Below, piece after piece: positions 8,610 to 28,590 of a DNA stretch of 34,831 bases. Position 1 is the stretch's first letter; each line of letters starts with the position of its first letter. Source of the stretch: Pseudomonadota bacterium (GTDB lineage Bacteria; Pseudomonadota; Alphaproteobacteria; Acetobacterales; Acetobacteraceae). Made by a program: the position numbers and the translations under genes. The stretch is taken from positions 1 to 34,831 of the forward strand of contig JAJYXY010000091.1 in assembly GCA_021801465.1 (NCBI GenBank). The letters are read 5' to 3'. Below the pieces are notes generated by a model, which was given only the letters and a program-made list of their open reading frames with translations, was not told the DNA's origin and did not search any database.

Positions 8610-9114
8610 CACCAAGACCACCACCCCCCTTCCCGCCTTTCGCCGCCTTGAGACACCGACCGAGGCGGAGGCCGCGCTGAGACAGGGAGGGCTTCGCTGG
8701 GGCGGGGTCGCCGAACTTTCCTATAAGGAAGATGAGACGACGCCGTTTCGCGCGGTCACCCGGCAGGTTCTGTTTCAGAGCCCCGAACTCGCCGGCGAGT
8801 GGCGTTATTTCGAAGTGGCGCCGGGCGGATATTCGACGCTCGAGCGGCATGAGCATGCGCATGGCGTGATGATTTTGAGCGGGCGCGGCCGGGCGCTGGT
8901 GGGCGACGCGGTGCGGGCCGTAGCGCCGTTCGATCTGGTCGCGATCCCAGGCTGGACCTGGCATCAATTCCGCGCCGATCAGGACGCGCCGCTCGGCTTT
9001 CTCTGCCTTGTCAACGTCATCCGCGACAAGCCGGTTTTGCCGGACGCTGCGGATCTCGCCAATCTTCGGCGCAACCCTGAGATCGCGGCGTTTCTCGGCC
9101 TTTCGCAGCAATGA
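8602..9114 (+). CDS. cupin protein, probable methylthioxylulose-5-phosphate methylsulfurylase
   Basis: A 170-residue single-domain cupin. The metal-binding motif 1 is visible as HEHAHGVMILSGRGRALVGD (about residues 88-107) and motif 2 as DLVAIPGWTWHQFRA. It begins 8 bases inside the RLP gene, so the two are translationally coupled. In R. rubrum the RLP partner cupin removes methanethiol from 1-methylthioxylulose-5-phosphate to give 1-deoxyxylulose-5-phosphate, joining methylthioadenosine salvage to isoprenoid synthesis. The assignment is by pairing with the RLP; the cupin fold alone is not specific. MtnP and MtnA genes, needed upstream, are not in the window. Confidence 0.75.
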   Translation: MADTKTTTPLPAFRRLETPTEAEAALRQGGLRWGGVAELSYKEDETTPFRAVTRQVLFQSPELAGEWRYFEVAPGGYSTLERHEHAHGVMILSGRGRALVGDAVRAVAPFDLVAIPGWTWHQFRADQDAPLGFLCLVNVIRDKPVLPDAADLANLRRNPEIAAFLGLSQQ

Positions 9115-10904
9115 GCGAGGCGACGGCGGCACAGCCCCGCATCGAGGACTATGCCATGATCGGTGATGGCCATAGTGCCGCGCTGGTCAACCGCACAGGG
9201 TCCGTGGATTGGCTGTGTTGGCCGCGTTTCGACAGCCCCGCCTGTTTCGCCGCCCTTCTCGGCGGGCGCAATCACGGTCGCTGGCTGATCGCACCGAAGG
9301 GAGCGGTGCACACCATCAGCCGCGCCTATCGCGGCAGCTCGCTCGTCTTGGAGACGGTGTTCACGACCGAAGACGGCGAGGTCGCACTCATCGATTTCAT
9401 GCCGCCGAATGGCGCCTCCTCCTCGGTCATCCGTCTCGTCGCCGGGCGTTCAGGGCGGGTTACCATGCGCCTCGATCTCACGCTGCGCTTCGATTACGGC
9501 ACCACCATCCCCTGGGTGACCCGCCTTTCCGATGGCAATGGCATCCGCGCGATCGCCGGCCCCGACATGGTGGTGTTGCGCACACCCATCACCTTACTCG
9601 GCCAAAATCTCGCGACCATTGCCGAGTTCGAGATCGCCGCCGGCGAGACCATCCCCTTCACCCTCACCCATTTCGCCTCGCATGTCGCGCCCGACCCGCC
9701 GCTCGACCCGCTCCACGCCCTCGCCACGACCGAGCAATTCTGGGCCGAGTGGTCCGGGCGCTGCAGCTGCGACGAGCGTTATCGCGAGCCGGTTCTTCGC
9801 TCGCTGATCACCCTGAAAGCGCTGATCTACACGCCAACCGGCGGCATCGTCGCAGCACCTACGACCTCGCTTCCCGAACAATGGGGCGGGCCGCGCAACT
9901 GGGATTATCGCTATTGCTGGCTGCGCGATGCGACACTGACCCTCGATGCGCTGATGGCGGCGGGGTACTATGACGAGGCGGAGGCGTGGCGCAACTGGCT
10001 GCATCGGGCGATCGCCGGCAGCCCGGCGCAGGTGCAAATCATGTACGGCCTCGCTGGCGAGCGCCGGCTCGCGGAATGGGAGGCGACGTGGCTGCCCGGC
10101 TTTGCTGGCTCGCGCCCGGTTCGGATCGGCAATGCCGCCTCGGATCAGCTTCAGCTCGACGTCTATGGCGAGGTCATGGATTCGGCCCATACCGCGCGGC
10201 GGGGTGGCCTTGGGGCGGCGCGCGATTCCTGGCCGATGCAGCGCAGATTGCTCGAACATCTCGCGCGGATCTGGGATCGCCCGGACGAAGGATTATGGGA
10301 AGTCCGCGGCGGGCGGCGGCATTTCACCTTTTCCAAAGTGATGGCCTGGGTCGCCTTCGACCGCGCGATCAAGGATGCCGAGACCTATCATCTCGACGCG
10401 CCGCTCGAACGCTGGCGGGCGTTGCGCGATCACATCCACGCGACCATCTGCCGGGAAGGCGTCGATCCCGAGCGCCAATGTTTCGTCCAAAGCTTTGGCG
10501 CGCGTGAGCTCGATGCCAGTCTTCTGCTCATCCCGCTGGTCGGGTTTCTGCCGCCCGAAGATCCGCGCGTGCGCGCGACCATCGCCGCGATCGAGCAGGA
10601 TTTGATGGAGGACGGGCTGGTGCTGCGCTATCGCACCGAGGCGGGAACCGATGGCTTGCCGCCGGGCGAGGGGGCGTTTCTCGCGTGCAGCTTCTGGCTC
10701 GTCGATAATCTCGTCCTGCAAGGGCGCCGCGCCGAGGCAGAGGCTCTCTTCGCGCGGCTACTCGATTTGCGTAACGATGTCGGCTTGCTCGCCGAGGAGT
10801 ATGATCCGCATGCCCGGCGCCAGCTCGGCAATTTTCCGCAAGCTTTTTCGCATCTCGCCCTCGTCCGCGCGGCGCTGACCCTGGCCGCTGACCCTGGCCG
10901 CTGA
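9111..10904 (+). CDS. glycoside hydrolase family 15 protein (glucoamylase/trehalase-like)
   Basis: A 597-residue cytoplasmic-looking GH15 enzyme without a signal peptide. It has an N-terminal beta-sandwich ('IEDYAMIGDGHSAALVNRTG', 'VDWLCWPRFDSPACFAALLG') and an (alpha/alpha)6 catalytic barrel. The barrel carries WGGPRNWDYRYCWLRDATLT, PVRIGNAASDQLQLDVYGEV preceded by the EWEATWLPG segment with the likely general acid, and LLAEEYDPHARRQLGNFPQA with the likely general base. Bacterial members hydrolyse alpha-glucosides, some of them trehalose; otsA lies in this window but not nearby. It overlaps the cupin stop (ATGA). The last residues (ALTLAADPGR) and the stop codon come from a 13-bp tandem repeat. 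Confidence 0.9.
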   Translation: MSEATAAQPRIEDYAMIGDGHSAALVNRTGSVDWLCWPRFDSPACFAALLGGRNHGRWLIAPKGAVHTISRAYRGSSLVLETVFTTEDGEVALIDFMPPNGASSSVIRLVAGRSGRVTMRLDLTLRFDYGTTIPWVTRLSDGNGIRAIAGPDMVVLRTPITLLGQNLATIAEFEIAAGETIPFTLTHFASHVAPDPPLDPLHALATTEQFWAEWSGRCSCDERYREPVLRSLITLKALIYTPTGGIVAAPTTSLPEQWGGPRNWDYRYCWLRDATLTLDALMAAGYYDEAEAWRNWLHRAIAGSPAQVQIMYGLAGERRLAEWEATWLPGFAGSRPVRIGNAASDQLQLDVYGEVMDSAHTARRGGLGAARDSWPMQRRLLEHLARIWDRPDEGLWEVRGGRRHFTFSKVMAWVAFDRAIKDAETYHLDAPLERWRALRDHIHATICREGVDPERQCFVQSFGARELDASLLLIPLVGFLPPEDPRVRATIAAIEQDLMEDGLVLRYRTEAGTDGLPPGEGAFLACSFWLVDNLVLQGRRAEAEALFARLLDLRNDVGLLAEEYDPHARRQLGNFPQAFSHLALVRAALTLAADPGR

Positions 10905-10951
10905 CCCTGGCCGCTGACCCTGGCCGCTGACCCTGGCCGCCTACCCTGGCC
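10874..10951. repeat. 13-bp tandem repeat (minisatellite), six units
   Basis: The unit GCTGACCCTGGCC is repeated perfectly five times (10874-10938), followed by one variant, GCCTACCCTGGCC (10939-10951). Because 13 is not a multiple of 3, each unit is read in a different frame. The third unit supplies the TGA stop (10902-10904) of the GH15 gene, and the remaining units are non-coding. Strand-slippage expansion is the simplest origin. Confidence 0.95.
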
Positions 10952-11016
10952 GCCGAACCGGTAAGTAACGCGGTGAACAAGGCGTAGACGCGCAGCTTTG
11001 CGACGCCGCGCGGCGA

Positions 11017-15315: not shown

Positions 15316-16245
15316 TCATATGATCGCATCCAAGGAAGCGCTCATGCGCGGGGCATCCCGGGTGCGACAGGCAATGATCTCAGCCGCGAGCCGCCCGGCA
15401 CTCTCGATCGGCGTCTCGGCGCTGGTATCGATGGTGAGATCGGCTTTGGCGTAAAGTGGCGTTCGCGCCTCGAGAATGGCGTGGAGATCGTCCATCGCCC
15501 GGGTAAGCTCGCTCATCGGGCGGAAATCGCCTTGGGCGATCACCCGCTGCATGTGAAGCCGCGGCGTCGCGCGCACCCAAACCGTCAGGCAATGGCGCAG
15601 AAGGAGCTCGAACGTCGCCGGTTCAGTCACCAAACTGCCGCCGGTCGCGATCACCAGCGCCTCGTTGCTCGCGATCAAGCGGGTGAGTGCGCGCAGTTCC
15701 AGCCGACGATAGCCGGCCTGGCCGTTTTGATCGAAAATCTCGCCAAGGCTCGCCCCAGCCTCTTGCTCGATTTCCCGCCCGAGTTCGACAAAGCGCGCCC
15801 CGAGCCGTGCCGCGAGCAACGGCCCGAGCGTCGATTTGCCGCCGCCGCGCAAGCCGATCAGCGCCACCCGCATGGTCCGCAACGGCGCGGCCAGGCGCGG
15901 AAAATGCTGCGCGATCAGCCGCCGCGCGACAGCAAAATCCTCGGCGTCAAGCCCCGAGAGCATCTGCTCGAGAAGAACGAACTCGAGATCCCGCGCCTCG
16001 CGTTCGGTAAGCAGAAATCCGATATCGGTCGCCAGCGCTTCGGCAATGCGCCGGAGCAACAGAATTGATACATTACCCTCCCCGCTCTCGATCTGCGCGA
16101 TATAGCGCTCCGAGACGCGGGCGCGGCGCGCGAGCAAGCGGCGGGTCATGCCACGCTCGGCGCGCCGCCGGCGCAGCCGCGCGCCGACCCCTGCGAGATA
16201 GGCGCGTTGCGCCGCGCTCGGATCAGACGGCGGGCTTTGCGTCAC
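15316..16245 (-). CDS. HTH regulator fused to a shikimate kinase-like domain (BoxR/BzdR type)
   Basis: A 309-residue two-domain protein. An XRE-type HTH covers residues ~17-80 ([20 protein letters not shown], then [20 protein letters not shown]). After a linker comes a shikimate kinase-like P-loop domain at ~125-300, with Walker [10 protein letters not shown] (131-139), [15 protein letters not shown] and the [11 protein letters not shown] segment. This fusion is that of BoxR/BzdR regulators of aerobic or anaerobic benzoyl-CoA degradation, where the kinase-like domain binds benzoyl-CoA. It begins with GTG overlapping the tyrS stop (GTGA). No box genes are in the window; pobA lies 13 kb away. 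The effector is inferred from family only. Confidence 0.85.
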
Positions 16246-17486
16246 ACCGGCTGCACCAGCCGATGCTGCTTGCGCCCAGCCGAGAGCTTGATCACGCCCT
16301 CCCTGAGATCGTCGCGCGTCAAGGCCCGCGCCTCATCGGTAATCACGGCGTCGTTGACCCGCGCGCCACCGCCCCGGATCAGCCGCCGCGCCTCGCCATT
16401 GCTCGCCGCAAGCCCGGCCGCGACGAAAAGCTGAAATACTGGCACGCCGCGGGCAAGATCGGCGGCGGGGATTGCGACACGCGGCAAATCCTCGGCGAGC
16501 CCGCCCGCGCCGAAAACCTGCCCCGCCGCGCGCGCCGCCGCCTCGGCCGCGTCCCGCCCATGCGCGAGCGAAGTCGCCTCGGTGGCCAGCACGATCTTTG
16601 CCTCGTTGATCTCGGCATCGCGCAAGGCCTCGAGACGCGCGATCTCGGTGAGCGGCAGATCGGTAAAGAGGCGCAAGAACCGCCCGACATCGGCATCCTC
16701 GGCATTGCGCCAGAATTGCCAGTAATCGAACGGCGCCAGCCGCTCGGCGGTGAGCCAGATCGCGCCGCGTGCCGTCTTGCCCATCTTCGCGCCCGAAGCC
16801 GTCGTGATCAGCGGCGAGGTGAGGCCGAACACCGTCTTGCCCTCGGTGCGGCGCACCAGCTCCATCCCGGCGACGATATTGCCCCATTGATCCGATCCGC
16901 CGCACTGCAGAACTACGCCGTGGCGGCGATGAAGCTCGCGGAAATCATAGCTCTGGAGGATCATGTAATTGAATTCGAGGAAGGTCAGCGGCTGCTCGCG
17001 CTCGAGCCGCAGCCGCACGGCATCGAAGCCGAGCATGCGGTTGATGGTAAAATGTGTGCCCACCTCGCGGAGCAACGCAATATAGCCGAGGGCATCGAGC
17101 CAGTCGGCGTTGTTGACCACCATCGCCTCGCCCGGGCGGTCGCCAAAGCGCAGAAACGGGTCGAAGACGCGGCGGATGCCGGCCATATTCGCGGCGATCT
17201 GATCATCCGACAGCAATTGCCGCGCCTCGTCTTTGCCGGAAGGATCGCCGATCCGGCTGGTGCCACCGCCGAGCAGCACCACCGGCCGGTGGCCGTGGCG
17301 CTGCAGCAAGCGCAGCAGCATGATCTGCACCAGGCTCCCGACATGGAGACTATCGGCGGTACAATCGAAGCCGATATAAGCGGCGATCGGCCCGGCTTCG
17401 AGCCGCGCATCCAGCGCTTCGAGGTCGGTGCATTGAAACACGAAGCCACGGGCGATGGCTTCGGTGAGAAAGGCGCTACGCGGCAT
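16242..17486 (-). CDS. tyrS: tyrosyl-tRNA synthetase
   Basis: Class I aminoacyl-tRNA synthetase charging tRNA-Tyr, 414 residues. The HIGH-like motif is HVGS in [14 protein letters not shown], and the tyrosine pocket includes QSYDFRELH and [14 protein letters not shown]. The KMSKS equivalent is KMGKT. The C-terminal S4 RNA-binding domain ([20 protein letters not shown]) ends the protein. The start is ATG 17486 ([11 protein letters not shown]). The stop overlaps the start of the BoxR-like gene. It is divergent from anmK, a common alphaproteobacterial arrangement, but here the divergent region contains a 154-bp inverted-repeat element. Confidence 0.97.
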
Positions 17487-17523: not shown

Positions 17524-17677
17524 CTTCTTTTTCTGAAGAAAAAGAAGCAAAAAGACTTTCTTCCCGTTCTTGCGGCGCCGCAAGCCGGATCCGAGCGGGC
17601 CGCCTCGGCGTGGGCAGCACCGCAGGCACTACCCAATGGAAAAAGTTTTTTTGGTTCTTTTTTTTCAAAAAAAGAAC
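17524..17677. repeat. 154-bp MITE-like element with ~40-bp A+T-rich terminal inverted repeats
   Basis: The left end (17524-17564) starts CTTCTTTTTCTGAAG and runs to ACTTTCTTCC. The reverse complement of the right end (17637-17677) starts GTTCTTTTTTTGAAA and runs to ACTTTTTCC. The ends align over about 40 bases with few mismatches, and each end is itself a palindrome (11-bp stems). The G+C-rich core holds the perfect palindrome CTTGCGGCGCCGCAAG at 17569-17584 and a CCGAG/CTCGG stem. No coding potential is convincing. No target-site duplication is obvious. Related solo ends occur at 26767 and 28519. Confidence 0.75.
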
Positions 17678-17729: not shown

Positions 17730-18821
17730 ATGTGGCGGGTGATCGGGCTGATGAGTGGCACCTCGCTCGACGGGGTCGATGCCGCGCTGGTCGAAACCGA
17801 TGGGATGCGCGTCGGAAGCTTCGGCTCCACCATTACGCTGCCCTATCCGCCGGCGCTGCGCGCAGCACTCCGCGTCCTCTTGACGCGCGCGCCGCATCTC
17901 CGCGCTGATGATCCCGCGCTCCAAGCCGCCGAGGCCGAACTCACCGCCCGCCACGCCGACGCGGTCGCGGCACTCGGCACGAAAGCCGACGTGATCGGCT
18001 TTCACGGCCAGACCATCCTGCACGACCCGCAAGCCCGCCGCACCTGGCAGATCGGCGATGCCGCGGCTCTGTCGCGCGCAACGGGGCTTGGCGTGGTCTT
18101 CGACTTCCGGAGCCGCGATGTCGCCGCCGGCGGCGAAGGCGCACCGCTCGTTCCTGTCTTCCATGCCGCCCTCGCGGCGGGCCTGCCGCGCCCAGTCGCG
18201 ATCCTCAATATCGGCGGCGTCGCCAATGTCACGTGGATCGGGGAGCGAGACGATCTTCTTGCCTGTGATACCGGGCCCGGCAACGGCCCCCTCGATGACT
18301 GGCTCATGCGCCACACTGGCGCCCCCTTCGACACCGAGGGCGCCTTGGCGCGCGCGGGACGGCCCGACGACGCGGTGCTCGCGCGCCTGCTCGCCGATCC
18401 CTATTTCCGCCGCGCGGCGCCGAAATCGCTCGACCGGCTGGCCTTTGCCGGCGCCTTGGCGCAAAGCGGGATCGATGCTTTATCCCCGGCCGATGGCGCT
18501 GCGACCTTGGTTGCCTTTCTCGCCGCTGCGATCGCCCTGACCCCTCTGCCGGCGCCACCACGGCGCTGGCTCGTTGCCGGCGGCGGGCGGCATAATCCGG
18601 CGATCATGGCGGCGCTGCGCGAGCGCCTCGCAGCACCGGTGGACGCGGTCGAGGCGCTTGGCTGGAACGGCGACGCGCTAGAGGCGCAATGCTTCGCCTT
18701 CCTCGCCGCCCGCCACCTCGCTGATCTGCCGATCAGTTTCCCAGGAACCACCGGGGTACCGAGACCAATGCGGGGCGGGCGATTTATGCATGCCAAAGAC
18801 GAAGGAAAAACCCTTTTTTGA
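17730..18821 (+). CDS. anmK: anhydro-N-acetylmuramic acid kinase
   Basis: A 363-residue cytoplasmic enzyme of cell-wall recycling that phosphorylates and opens 1,6-anhydroMurNAc to MurNAc-6-phosphate. It shows the N-terminal [17 protein letters not shown], then [54 protein letters not shown], and [15 protein letters not shown] near the end. The product ends [15 protein letters not shown], about ten residues beyond the usual Gly-Gly-Arg end. It starts at ATG 17730, 52 nt after the right inverted repeat of the MITE-like element, and is divergent from tyrS. Confidence 0.95.
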
Positions 18822-24935: not shown

Positions 24936-26753
24936 GTGAGCGGCTCCAATTTTCTTGTTCTTCCGAATGAAAGCGGAACCCTCGATACCCTCACCGCGAC
25001 CCAGGATTATTTCGTCGTGGCGATCCGACAGGGGGCGACGCTCGATGTCGCCGCTGGTGGCGCGGCGAGCGTCGATCTGTTGTCCGTCCAACAAGGGGGT
25101 GTTCTGGAGGTCGCGGCGGGCGGCGTTGTCGATGCGAACCTGCTTGCCCTTCAGCAAGGCGGCGTTGGCACCAACCTCAGTTTATATCCCGCCGGTACCA
25201 TTCTTATCGATGGCGGCACGCTCGAGACGACCAATTTGGCGAGCATTGGCGGCGTCGTCGCCATCGAGAATGGCGGCGCGGCCGATCTGCGTCTCGCGCC
25301 CCCGACCGCAATCATCAACGGGGTCGCGCAGAATTCCGGCACGATCGACATTGCCGGCGCAAGTTCAGCGACCCTTGGCTACGCCTCTGGGATCACGCGC
25401 TTTGGCGGTCTCGTCAATTTCTCTGCCGCGGATGGCACTCCGGCGCCGGGCGGCACGGCGGTCGTTGACGATGTCATCGCCAATCTCGGCACCTTCGCTG
25501 ATTTCACGGCCGGCGACACGATCGACCTCAGCGGCTACGCCTCGGGCACCCGCTTCGCCGTCACCGCGTTGCCTCCCCCTTCCTTGCCGGCCTCGGTGCC
25601 GAGTGATCTCTCGACCCTCTATGCGCTCACCGATACGGCCGGCGGCGTTACCGCCACCATCGCGACGCTCGCGGTTATCGATGGCGCGAAGCCTCTGCTT
25701 AACGCCAACAATGACACGATCACCGCCTGTTTCGCTGCCGGGACGCGGATTCTCACGGTGCGTGGCGAGGTCGCCGTCGACGCTTTGCGGGTTGGCGATC
25801 TCGTCGCCACCTTCTCCGGCGCTGGCGCGGCGCTAAAACCCGTGCGTTGGATCGGCTATCGCCATGTCGATCTCACCGCCCATCCGACGCCAGAGAAAGT
25901 GCGCCCGGTGCGCATGATCGCCGGGTGTTTGGCGCCTGGTCTGCCGCACCGGGATTTGGTGCTGTCGCCAGGACACGCGCTTTGCATCGATGATCATCTG
26001 GTCGACGTCGAATGGCTGTTGAACGGCGTCACGGTGACGCAAGACATGACGGTCGATGCCGTCACCTATTATCATATCGAGCTCGATCAGCATGATCTCG
26101 TGCTCGCCGAGGGGGTATTTTCGGAAACCTATCTCGATACGGGCAATCGCGGGCAGTTCGTCAATGCTGGGGCGGCAATTGCACTGCATCCCGATTTTTT
26201 GCCGCACCAGGACAAATCGGTTGGCGCGTGCCGGCCATGGCTGACCGGTGGCCCGTTGCTCCGCGAGATCCGCGCCCGGCTGATCGCGGCGATCGAGGCG
26301 GATGGCTATCGGCTGACGGAACAAGCCGATCTTCATCTCGTGAGCGGTGGCTTGCCTCTCCGCGCAGAGCGTGTTGGCGAGGGCGTGGTGCGCTTTACGC
26401 TTCCCTCCCCGGCGCAAGAGTGCCGCCTTCGCTCGCGGGTTTGGATCCCGGGTGGGGTTGACGCGTCGAATGAGGATATGCGCCGCCTCGGTGTCAGGAT
26501 CCGGGCGTTGGCGGCGATCGGCCCGGCGGGGCGGCGCGCGATTGCCCTCGATGATCCTGCATTGCAGACAGGGTTTTATGGGCTGGAACGTTTCGGCGAT
26601 GACGCGTGGCGCTGGACCACCGGCGATGCCATGATCCCGGCAGTGCTTTTGGCGGATGCTGTCGCGTTGGAGCTGGAGATTGTCAGCACCGGCCTCTATT
26701 GGGATTTGCCAGAGGCCGAGGAATTCGAGGAACCCTATCTCCTCTCCGCCTAA
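24936..26753 (+). CDS. Hint-domain protein with repetitive beta-rich N-terminus
   Basis: A 605-residue protein started at GTG 24936 (VSGSNFLVLPNE), with AGAGGA nine bases upstream; the open frame continues further but lacks a better start. Residues ~1-200 are Gly/Ala/Val-rich with repeated GATLDVAAGG, GGVLEVAAGGVVDANLLALQ and GGTLETTNLA units, as in autotransporter-like beta-helices. A Hint (hedgehog/intein) domain begins at Cys265 (CFAAGTRILTVRGEVAVDAL) and runs through SPGHALCIDDHLVDVEWLLN to YHIELDQHDLVLAEG and SETYLDTGNRGQF (~410). About 190 further residues form an unrecognised C-terminal region. Hint_2 proteins are frequent in Acetobacteraceae and are probably exported or self-processing; no signal peptide is visible. 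Confidence 0.85.
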   Translation: MSGSNFLVLPNESGTLDTLTATQDYFVVAIRQGATLDVAAGGAASVDLLSVQQGGVLEVAAGGVVDANLLALQQGGVGTNLSLYPAGTILIDGGTLETTNLASIGGVVAIENGGAADLRLAPPTAIINGVAQNSGTIDIAGASSATLGYASGITRFGGLVNFSAADGTPAPGGTAVVDDVIANLGTFADFTAGDTIDLSGYASGTRFAVTALPPPSLPASVPSDLSTLYALTDTAGGVTATIATLAVIDGAKPLLNANNDTITACFAAGTRILTVRGEVAVDALRVGDLVATFSGAGAALKPVRWIGYRHVDLTAHPTPEKVRPVRMIAGCLAPGLPHRDLVLSPGHALCIDDHLVDVEWLLNGVTVTQDMTVDAVTYYHIELDQHDLVLAEGVFSETYLDTGNRGQFVNAGAAIALHPDFLPHQDKSVGACRPWLTGGPLLREIRARLIAAIEADGYRLTEQADLHLVSGGLPLRAERVGEGVVRFTLPSPAQECRLRSRVWIPGGVDASNEDMRRLGVRIRALAAIGPAGRRAIALDDPALQTGFYGLERFGDDAWRWTTGDAMIPAVLLADAVALELEIVSTGLYWDLPEAEEFEEPYLLSA

Positions 26754-26764
26754 CCCCTGAAATC

Positions 26765-26803
26765 AAAAAGTCTTTTTGCTTCTTTTTCTTCAGAAAAAGA
26801 AGC
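26765..26803 (+). repeat. A+T-rich double-palindrome repeat, solo copy
   Basis: Two palindromes are adjacent: CAAAAAGTCTTTTTG (26764-26778) and a 12-bp stem GCTTCTTTTTCT/AGAAAAAGAAGC with a two-base loop (26778-26803). Bases 26767-26802 are identical over 36 nt to the reverse complement of 17524-17559. It lies 11 bp after the Hint gene stop and 45 bp before the hslO start. It might serve as a terminator, though it is followed by CCCTTATCC rather than a T-run. Confidence 0.85.
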
Positions 26804-26848: not shown

Positions 26849-27784
26849 ATGAACGATACGCCAGCTTTTCTCGATACCGATCGCCCAAACGTACCCGACC
26901 TCGTCGTGCCGCGCGCGGTGATCCCGTTCACGCTCACGAACGCGCCAGCGCATGGCCGGCTAGTGCGGCTGGGGCCGCTCGCCGACGCGCTCTTGTCGCG
27001 CCACCCACATCCAGCGCCCGTCTCCGCGCTCGCGGGTGAAGCGCTGGGGCTGGTTGCCGCACTCGCGGGTGGGCTGAAATTTCGCGGCTCTTTCAGCCTG
27101 CATGCGCGTGGCGACGGGCGGCTGCGCACCTTGGCGGCCGATTGCACCGATCAGGGGGCGCTCCGTTTTTACGCCGGCCTGGCCAAAGATTTCCCCCCCC
27201 TGACAGACGTTGCCCCGCTTTCCGCGCGCGACCTGCTCGGCGAGGGTCACGTCGCTTTCACCGTCGATCAGGGTGCCGACGGCGCGCGCCATCAGGGGAT
27301 CGTCGCCACCACCGGCACGTCTCTTGCTGACATGGCCGAACATTACTACGAGACCAGCGCCCAGCTCGCGGCGTCGATCTCTCTCGCTTGCAGCCATTTG
27401 CCCGAAGGCTGGCGAGCCGGCGCGCTCATTCTGGAGCGCATCGCCGGTCAGCCGGGCGTCGACCACGCGGCCGCCGAGGAAGGATGGCGCACGGCGCGCC
27501 TGCTCGCCGCAACCCTGACGAAGAGCGAATTGCTCGATGACGCGCTTGCCGCCGAGACTTTACTCTATCGGCTATTCCATGAAACCGGGGTTGATGTCGG
27601 CCGGCCGCGCGCGCTTGCGTTCGGCTGCCGTTGCTCGCGCGCCCGGCTCTCGGCCATTTTGGAGGGGTTTCCCGCCGACGATCTCGACGACATGACGATC
27701 GATGGCGATATCGTCATGACCTGCGAGTTTTGCGCCGTCGATTTCCGCTTCCGGCGAGAGACATTTCGCGGCCGAGAGGCTTGA
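26849..27784 (+). CDS. hslO: redox-regulated chaperone Hsp33
   Basis: A 311-residue holdase chaperone activated when oxidants release zinc from four Cys. The C-terminal switch is complete: GCRCSR (CxC) then TCEFCAVDF (CxxC). The N-terminal fold shows HPAPVSALAGEALGLVAALA, LKFRGSFSLHARGDGRLRTL and HYYETSAQLAASISLA. It starts at ATG 26849 without an evident ribosome-binding site, and the A+T-rich repeat sits 45 nt upstream. It acts in the cytoplasm against oxidative unfolding. Confidence 0.95.
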   Translation: MNDTPAFLDTDRPNVPDLVVPRAVIPFTLTNAPAHGRLVRLGPLADALLSRHPHPAPVSALAGEALGLVAALAGGLKFRGSFSLHARGDGRLRTLAADCTDQGALRFYAGLAKDFPPLTDVAPLSARDLLGEGHVAFTVDQGADGARHQGIVATTGTSLADMAEHYYETSAQLAASISLACSHLPEGWRAGALILERIAGQPGVDHAAAEEGWRTARLLAATLTKSELLDDALAAETLLYRLFHETGVDVGRPRALAFGCRCSRARLSAILEGFPADDLDDMTIDGDIVMTCEFCAVDFRFRRETFRGREA

Positions 27785-28499: not shown

Positions 28500-28518
28500 T
28501 AGAGAGGCGAGACAAAAC

Positions 28519-28550
28519 CAGTTCTCTTTTTTAAAAAAGAACCAAGATTT
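28519..28550 (-). repeat. A+T-rich double-palindrome repeat, diverged solo copy
   Basis: Read on the minus strand this is AAAAATCTTGGTTCTTTTTT followed by AAAAAAGAGAACTGG. It resembles the right end of the 154-bp element (TTGGTTCTTTTTT...AAAAAAAGAAC), with a one-base bulge in the second stem. It lies between the lipoprotein gene and the bc1 terminator. Confidence 0.7.
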
Positions 28551-28554
28551 TTGT

Positions 28555-28590
28555 CATAAAAAACGGGGGCAGCCGATGGCGCCCCCGCTT
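28555..28590 (-). terminator. rho-independent terminator of the petABC operon
   Basis: On the minus strand, CGGGGGC (28587-28581) pairs with GCCCCCG (28570-28564). The stem is extended inward by GCC/GGC past a single bulged base, leaving a three-base loop. TTTTTTATG follows, an ideal U-tail. It begins 17 bp after the cytochrome c1 stop codon. Plus-strand reading also gives CTTCTTTTT after the stem, so it may work for both convergent genes. Confidence 0.88.

Follow-up and report, generated by a model that had tools for sequence, protein, structure and literature searches.

A dispersed A+T-rich repeat family of Acetobacteraceae with a candidate intrastrand triple-helix code

What kind of element is a short A+T-rich sequence that lies between two genes of a G+C-rich alphaproteobacterial genome and recurs, letter for letter, about 9 kb away? 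The question arose in a 34,831-nt stretch of an Acetobacteraceae contig, the whole of which is called the window here. The first-pass annotation had claimed a 36-nt identity 9 kb apart, and this was borne out: positions 26767-26802 on the plus strand are the exact reverse complement of 17524-17559 (36/36), with a negligible probability that such a match arises by chance in 35 kb. Another half-unit, rich in T, was found at 17642-17677 on the plus strand, and 17524-17677 as a whole forms a head-to-head composite of two half-units, 17524-17559 (minus) and 17642-17677 (plus), which point apart with an 82-bp centre between them. Taking all the evidence described below together, we lean towards reading the site as a half-unit of a dispersed BIME/MITE-like repeat, of which the composite would be triplex-coded, mobile-like and terminator-like.

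Copies in the window and anatomy of the unit

The features in the window that bear on this question are as follows, with u denoting the tract before the hairpin and h and r the two arms of the hairpin.

26767..26802, plus strand: solo type-1 half-unit, recognised by its sequence, its exact copy elsewhere and the covariation rule; AAAG 26767-26770, u TCTTTTT 26771-26777, G 26778, lower stem CTTC 26779-26782, h TTTTTCT 26783-26789, loop TC 26790-26791, r AGAAAAA 26792-26798, GAAG 26799-26802
17524..17559, minus strand: type-1 half-unit, left end of the composite, with orthologues at the same place in three congeners
17560..17641, no strand assigned: centre of the composite, a degenerate version of the genus centre GGGCAGTGCC..GGCACTGCCC
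17642..17677, plus strand: second half-unit of the composite; AAAG, u T7 17646-17652, G, GTTC 17654-17657, h T7 17658-17664, loop TC, r A7 17667-17673, GAAC 17674-17677
28510..28556, minus strand: palindrome between convergent genes, a similar hairpin lacking tract u
16245..17486, minus strand: neighbouring gene tyrS, tyrosine--tRNA ligase (NCBIfam TIGR00234, E 2e-102)
17730..18818, plus strand: neighbouring gene anmK, anhydro-N-acetylmuramic acid kinase (NCBIfam NF007141, E 2e-143)
26849..27784, plus strand: neighbouring gene hslO, Hsp33-family chaperone (NCBIfam NF002386, E 5e-72, below the curated cut-off)

The conserved unit reads AAAG-u-G-S-TTC-h-NN-r-GAA-S', where S-TTC-h pairs with r-GAA-S' as a hairpin with a 2-nt loop; for the copy at 26767-26802 the hairpin has a minimum free energy (MFE) of -13.1 kcal/mol (z -3.67). 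Three types prevailed, beside rarer forms:

Type 1: AAAG TCTTTTT GCTTC TTTTTCT TC AGAAAAA GAAG
Type 2: AAAG TTTTTT GGTTC TTTTTT TC AAAAAA GAAC
Type 3: AAAG TTTTTTT GSTTC TTTTTGT TC ACAAAAA GAAS

The four nucleotides before u were AAAG in 287 of 331 units and GAAG in 26, and the base directly before the hairpin was an invariant G. The S:S' pair was C:G in 183 units and G:C in 148, with T:A in some genomes, and these swaps indicate that the lower stem is a real pair. Since the 2-nt loop on the u-bearing strand was TC, AC, CC or GC in nearly all units (almost always NC), the loop sequence marks that strand. Stems were mostly 6-7 nt long, with a few of 5 nt, the loops measured 5 and 2 nt, and the length of u (5-8 nt) tracked that of r.

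A double palindrome had been proposed for the family. Its second hairpin is conserved, S:S' swaps included, but its first half is better read as a tract that covaries in parallel with r. The first half CAAAAAG-T-CTTTTTG is literally palindromic in the copy at 26767, yet this is not the general rule. A first-half hairpin suits some type-1 copies but leaves a single base for the loop in CAAAAAG-T-CTTTTTG. A shorter one, 4 bp around a loop of 3 nt, fits 197 of 331 units and may exist; we set the first-half hairpin aside because it does not explain the covariation. The sequence at 28519-28550, taken earlier for a diverged relative, lies in the palindrome at 28510-28556, which is strong, folds well and contains GGTTCTTTTTT/AAAAAAGAGAAC. 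Its hairpin resembles that of the family, but the T-tract before the hairpin is absent and membership is doubtful; we regard it as a decayed relative at best and did not count it as a member.

A variant of type 1 recurred in G001, L001, L005, L011 and L028, in which an enlarged apex (TTTTTCGGAAGTCAAAA, TTTTTCTGAAGTCAAAA and similar) replaces TTTTTCTTCAGAAAAA; the apical stem is broken and u is kept, and the triplex rule gives no explanation for it. Another repeated palindrome, ATACCGGCCAGCGATCTCGCTGACCGGTAT, was seen twice in L010 (~355-460) and in a related form in G001, beside gene ends, and is a separate terminator-like repeat family.

Genome-wide counts came from mismatch-tolerant pattern searches, and context from individual loci and stretches. 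The source genome is a draft of 2.81 Mb in 311 contigs, 87% complete. The 23-mer AAAAAGTYTTTTTGSTTCTTTTT matched it 86 times at up to 3 mismatches (45 plus, 41 minus), with 0 matches for the reversed pattern in the same genome, and a 21-mer gave 105 matches at up to 2 mismatches, that is, about 105 half-units. The extrapolation from the window to hundreds of copies genome-wide was an overestimate, since elements are more closely spaced in the window than on average in the genome, which has about 100 of them. That number is still far above a handful, and the family is real. Five congeners gave 15-180 matches each in the 21-mer search, and in the 1.2 Mb read directly from a 3.9-Mb contig of G001 there was about one element per 22 kb. 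An apparent strand bias along the G001 chromosome was discarded as a listing artefact, both strands being present in those 1.2 Mb.

In Acetobacteraceae, matches were present in 90 of the 398 genomes surveyed, which belong to 30 of the 102 genera sampled. Gluconacetobacter liquefaciens and Acidiphilium rubrum, both culturable, also gave matches. Copy number was patchy (0-385 overall, 1 to 385 in carriers), and in this survey many sister species of carriers had zero matches, as did the controls. The core of the unit was also present in two Rikenellaceae metagenome-assembled genomes (MAGs; 15 and 11 matches) and in a 'Ruminococcus' MAG (G043; 93 matches at up to 1 mismatch), and in the phylum of the latter it was present in just one other of 399 genomes. 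MAG contamination may be the source of these matches, although their flanks differ from those in Acetobacteraceae. In the 'Ruminococcus' MAG the half-unit is repeated in tandem, in direct orientation, every ~70 bp (L255, 1424-1598), in contrast to the head-to-head pairs of Acetobacteraceae. At the Rikenellaceae (Bacteroidota) loci L241, L246, L252 and L257 the half-units stand behind a short G+C hairpin, GGATGCGCAAGCATCC, mostly ~210-230 bp from the gene on the G+C-hairpin side, an arrangement that would suit the ends of a longer repeat.

Covariation of the tract before the hairpin

That this is a dispersed A+T-rich element family with a covariation rule is near certain. Tract u is the parallel Hoogsteen complement of r: both run the same way, and each A of r is faced by T, each G by C; in one common type a T faces a C-G inversion. 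The match was exact over the whole of r in 314 of 340 parsed units, against a mean of 109 and a maximum of 135 when u was shuffled among units, in a scoring under which T opposite a C-G pair counts as a match (adopted once type 3 had been seen) and in a sample where many units came from loci retrieved with a type-1/type-3 pattern. Neither bias affects two other kinds of test, palindromes taken regardless of u and searches that leave u free. When S-TTC-h-NN-r-GAA-S' palindromes were chosen blind to u in the 1.2 Mb of G001, an exact tract was found on one side in 61 of 67 and on both sides in 0 of 67. A search for h=TCTTTT/r=AAAAGA, with any pyrimidines allowed in u, returned 61 copies in G245 and one in G178; among the matches listed, u was TTTTCT save for one TTTTTT and two TCTTCT, and a direct copy TCTTTT never appeared, G245 being one recent copy burst that supplies most of this test, so that few events stand behind it. 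The corresponding search for h=TTTCTT/r=AAGAAA covered 22 genomes of 9 genera and gave u=TTCTTT in nearly all matches listed and TTTCTT in none of them. With r=ACAAAAA and u wholly free, T7 was present in nearly all copies among the matches listed. A G at r position 1 (one copy), 2, 3 or 5 was faced by C at the same position of u.

The copies with r=AAAAGA and u=TTTTCT exclude both a direct repeat and an antiparallel alternative pairing, and a plain mirror copy is disfavoured because the G of h in type 3 is faced by T. These observations bear on two other explanations of the tract. An attenuator-like switch, in which u would form antiparallel Watson-Crick pairs with r, or else with the lower stem plus A_n-G-A of r, accommodates type 1 (TCTTTTT and AAAAAGA) as well as r=AAGAAA and is possible in some register for 274 of 340 units, but it fails for r=AAAAGA, where u=TTTTCT finds no antiparallel partner in AAAAGAGAAC, and it explains neither T7 in type 3 as opposed to TCTTTTT in type 1 nor the equal lengths of tract and arm. 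We rejected it on the r=AAAAGA copies and give it hardly any probability. A double-stranded binding site for a nucleoid or regulatory protein, made of an inverted repeat and a half-site and spread by recombination, would account for a palindrome with a fixed 2-bp spacer, for the invariant G and the AAAG (287/331 units) and for A/T-tracts roughly 9-10 bp apart. However, a reader of dsDNA has no need of a mirror half-site that covaries with the palindrome, including the T opposite the G of h, and we consider such a site improbable.

The u/r rule is the sequence code of a pyrimidine-motif intrastrand triplex (T.A-T, C+.G-C); on the complementary strand it is that of a purine-motif intrastrand triplex, with the classes as described in PMC4666352. 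The topology of the unit suits a triplex, since u ends (3') on the side on which the lower stem starts (5'). When the lower stem is formed, a single base (G) joins u to the hairpin, so the stem and the third strand could hardly coexist; either the lower stem would open, leaving a 5-nt loop G-S-T-T-C, or two forms would alternate. C+ in a third strand requires protonation. In the triple-helix reading, a single strand, be it DNA exposed by replication or repair or a transcript, would fold into a triple helix, selection would keep u and r matched, and the folded strand may be recognised by an enzyme that spreads the element as non-autonomous mobile DNA. Within the composite, the central stem followed by a T-tract might also act, though here the case is weaker, as a bidirectional Rho-independent terminator.

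Covariation with the hairpin across many genera suggests that the triple helix is kept by natural selection. We put the chance that it forms and is selected at a little under even, and offer more tentatively the proposal that a one-strand triple helix could be the selected working form in living bacteria, possibly read by an enzyme for copying of the element or acting at transcript ends. If the reading is true, third-strand covariation in at least nine genera would constitute evolutionary evidence for a functional intrastrand triplex. In many lineages the length of the third strand, and several of its positions, shift together with the target, and evidence of this sort is what establishes base pairs in RNA. 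The covariation makes the question of intrastrand triplexes in vivo testable with matched and mismatched mutants, and the pattern points to a system, apparently present in more than one phylum, by which such elements are spread or maintained.

Genomic placement, possible terminator role and probable mobility

Composites of the source genus usually consist of type 2 (left, inverted), AAAAAACTTTTATCCGTTGGGCAGTGCC..GGCACTGCCC..AACGGGAAAAAG and type 1 (right). Other genera had different centres with the same end units, the centres being alike within a genus and not between genera. We counted 15 composites in loci of the source genome and 84 in other loci that are intergenic palindromes in opposite orientation with a linker, which is the BIME layout. 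Neighbouring genes were called with an ad hoc, home-made gene caller. Only 2 of 192 elements overlapped genes, and the 91 composites with both neighbours called lay in 32 convergent, 54 tandem and 5 divergent gaps, compared with 89, 269 and 107, respectively, among 465 background gaps of at least 40 bp. Composites thus favour convergent gaps and avoid divergent ones, while solo units had no orientation preference relative to tandem genes. Compared with shuffles, the 54 nt upstream of u had an excess of structure (mean z -1.48, as against -0.02 downstream), and the arms on either side of the centre paired in 89 of 116 composites versus 28 of 116 shuffled ones. Placement at gene 3' ends together with paired centre arms makes the composite resemble a terminator that works in both directions and has each of its T-tracts followed by an A+T hairpin. 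The traits of a Rho-independent terminator, a stem before the T-tract and a gene 3' end, are present in many composites and absent in the solo units and in the composite of the window. The latter is at odds with terminator use, as it sits between the divergent genes tyrS (minus) and anmK (plus) and has a degenerate centre (MFE -31.5 kcal/mol) with unpaired ends. The solo unit at 26767-26802 sits between a plus-strand gene ending at 26753 and the start of hslO at 26849.

Two further explanations have to be set against this picture. The elements could be ordinary bidirectional Rho-independent terminators, with a G+C stem, a T-tract and the A+T hairpin as a fail-safe, in which case the match of u and r would be a by-product of U-tract selection. 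The location at gene 3' ends, the stem-loop before u and the pairing of the centre ends in a stem that reaches the T-tract speak for this, but selection of that kind predicts neither a C in u opposite each G of r nor equal lengths, the elements are missing from many sister species, and solo units, that at 26767-26802 included, are neither preceded by a G+C stem nor oriented in a preferred way. We therefore find terminators of the ordinary kind an unlikely explanation of the family; a terminator role for the composite in addition to its triplex code is a possibility that we rate somewhat below even. The elements could instead be of the REP/REPIN type, moved by a RAYT (Y1) transposase with AAAG plus u as the tag, and the short intergenic palindromes with a 5' tag and the head-to-head pairs speak for this. 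Neither GTAG nor CGTC occurred among the 4-nt tags listed, however, and searches for a mobilising enzyme found no Y1_Tnp match in G000 (105 element matches; 87% complete), G002 (177) or G005 (132), whereas G004 has one Y1 match and 15 element matches only. Y1_Tnp is thus absent from element-rich genomes and a RAYT link is unsupported; CGTC repeats have also been reported missing from Acetobacteraceae (PMC3733652). This origin, too, appears improbable to us.

For the triplex-coded repeat itself, patchiness, centres particular to each genus and long jumps argue for mobility, and we think a mobile-like origin probable. At the tyrS-anmK site G001, G002 and G005 retain the type-1 hairpin, solo with a remnant of the centre, and G004 lacks it. 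At other orthologous composites (L008, L024, L029 and L013 versus G001) the end units were nearly identical and the centre was changed or deleted. Orthologues of the 26767 copy were sought upstream of hslO in congeners, where gene order differs; other elements likewise sit at points of differing gene order between species. Neither a clean empty site nor a target duplication was found among the loci compared, in which breakpoints coincide with changes of gene order.

Relation to known elements

The A+T-rich family bears on the question of intrastrand triplexes in living bacteria, their formation and their importance there. The closest known kind is that of the PIT/BoxC/TM intrastrand-triplex elements, for which Escherichia coli is the best-studied host (Holder et al. 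2015, PMC4666352, where earlier PIT work by Hoyne and Maher is cited). The ITxF definition given there asks for stem lengths of 6-15 nt and loop lengths of 1-6 nt. Enterobacteria and other proteobacteria carry TM_ECO, a G/C-rich motif whose stems have 9 nt and which folds in vitro, while footprinting in vivo detected no stable formation; A/T-rich motifs were judged less significant, and E. coli PIT elements had neither promoter nor terminator activity (PMC4666352). The main text of that paper makes no mention of Acetobacter, Gluconacetobacter or Acidiphilium.

With three tracts on one strand and the rule exact in 314 of 340, the A+T-rich unit agrees with the ITxF/PIT sequence definition. Like PIT and TM_ECO, it is a dispersed intergenic one-strand motif of two hairpin arms and a third tract obeying a triplex rule, with a copy number that varies widely among relatives, and its complementary strand has the TM_ECO order Y-loop-R-loop-R. 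Its consensus is unrelated to the G/C-rich TM_ECO/BoxC consensus CCCTCNCCC-N3-6-GGGNGAGGG-N3-GGGNGAGGG. The family is set apart from TM_ECO by composition and host range, being A+T-rich with tracts of 5-8 nt and residing in G+C-rich genomes, by the conserved AAAG and lower stem (S-TTC/GAA-S'), by frequent pairing around a G+C stem-loop and by third-strand covariation.

REP, BIME and REPIN elements (PMC3733652, PMC3116915) share with the family the 20-40-nt intergenic palindromes, the copy number of around 100, the head-to-head doublets with a variable centre and the avoidance of divergent gaps, but the family lacks a GTAG/CGTC tag and an associated RAYT gene and has A+T-rich arms and a third-strand tract. 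Although BIME-like in layout, it is not a GTAG/CGTC REP, since it has no such tag and several element-rich genomes have no Y1 transposase. With bidirectional Rho-independent terminators it has in common the G+C stem, the A-tract before and T-tract after it, and the gene 3' ends; it differs by the triplex-coded hairpin past each T-tract, by its spread as repeats and by its absence in most relatives. As in an H-DNA mirror repeat, u and h mirror each other about G-S-T-T-C, but here the purine partner is on the same strand, hence there is no strand exchange with a duplex. RNA triple helices of MALAT1/ENE and of telomerase pseudoknots are built from a U-tract (Hoogsteen), a U-tract (Watson-Crick) and an A-tract, with an occasional C+.G-C. 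The unit has the same order of tracts, but is bacterial, repeated and much shorter, and is known here as sequence, not as RNA.

Rfam gave no match above the gathering score at eight element-bearing loci. Searches of open-access literature found no account of this family in Acetobacteraceae; subscription papers or the ITxF database may list it already.

Elsewhere in the window, positions 10873-10953 hold a tandem array of a 13-bp unit, CGCTGACCCTGGC, with 6.2 copies and 97% matches, which spans the end of a gene called at 9111-10904. Since the unit length is not divisible by three, a change in copy number would shift the frame of the end of that gene.
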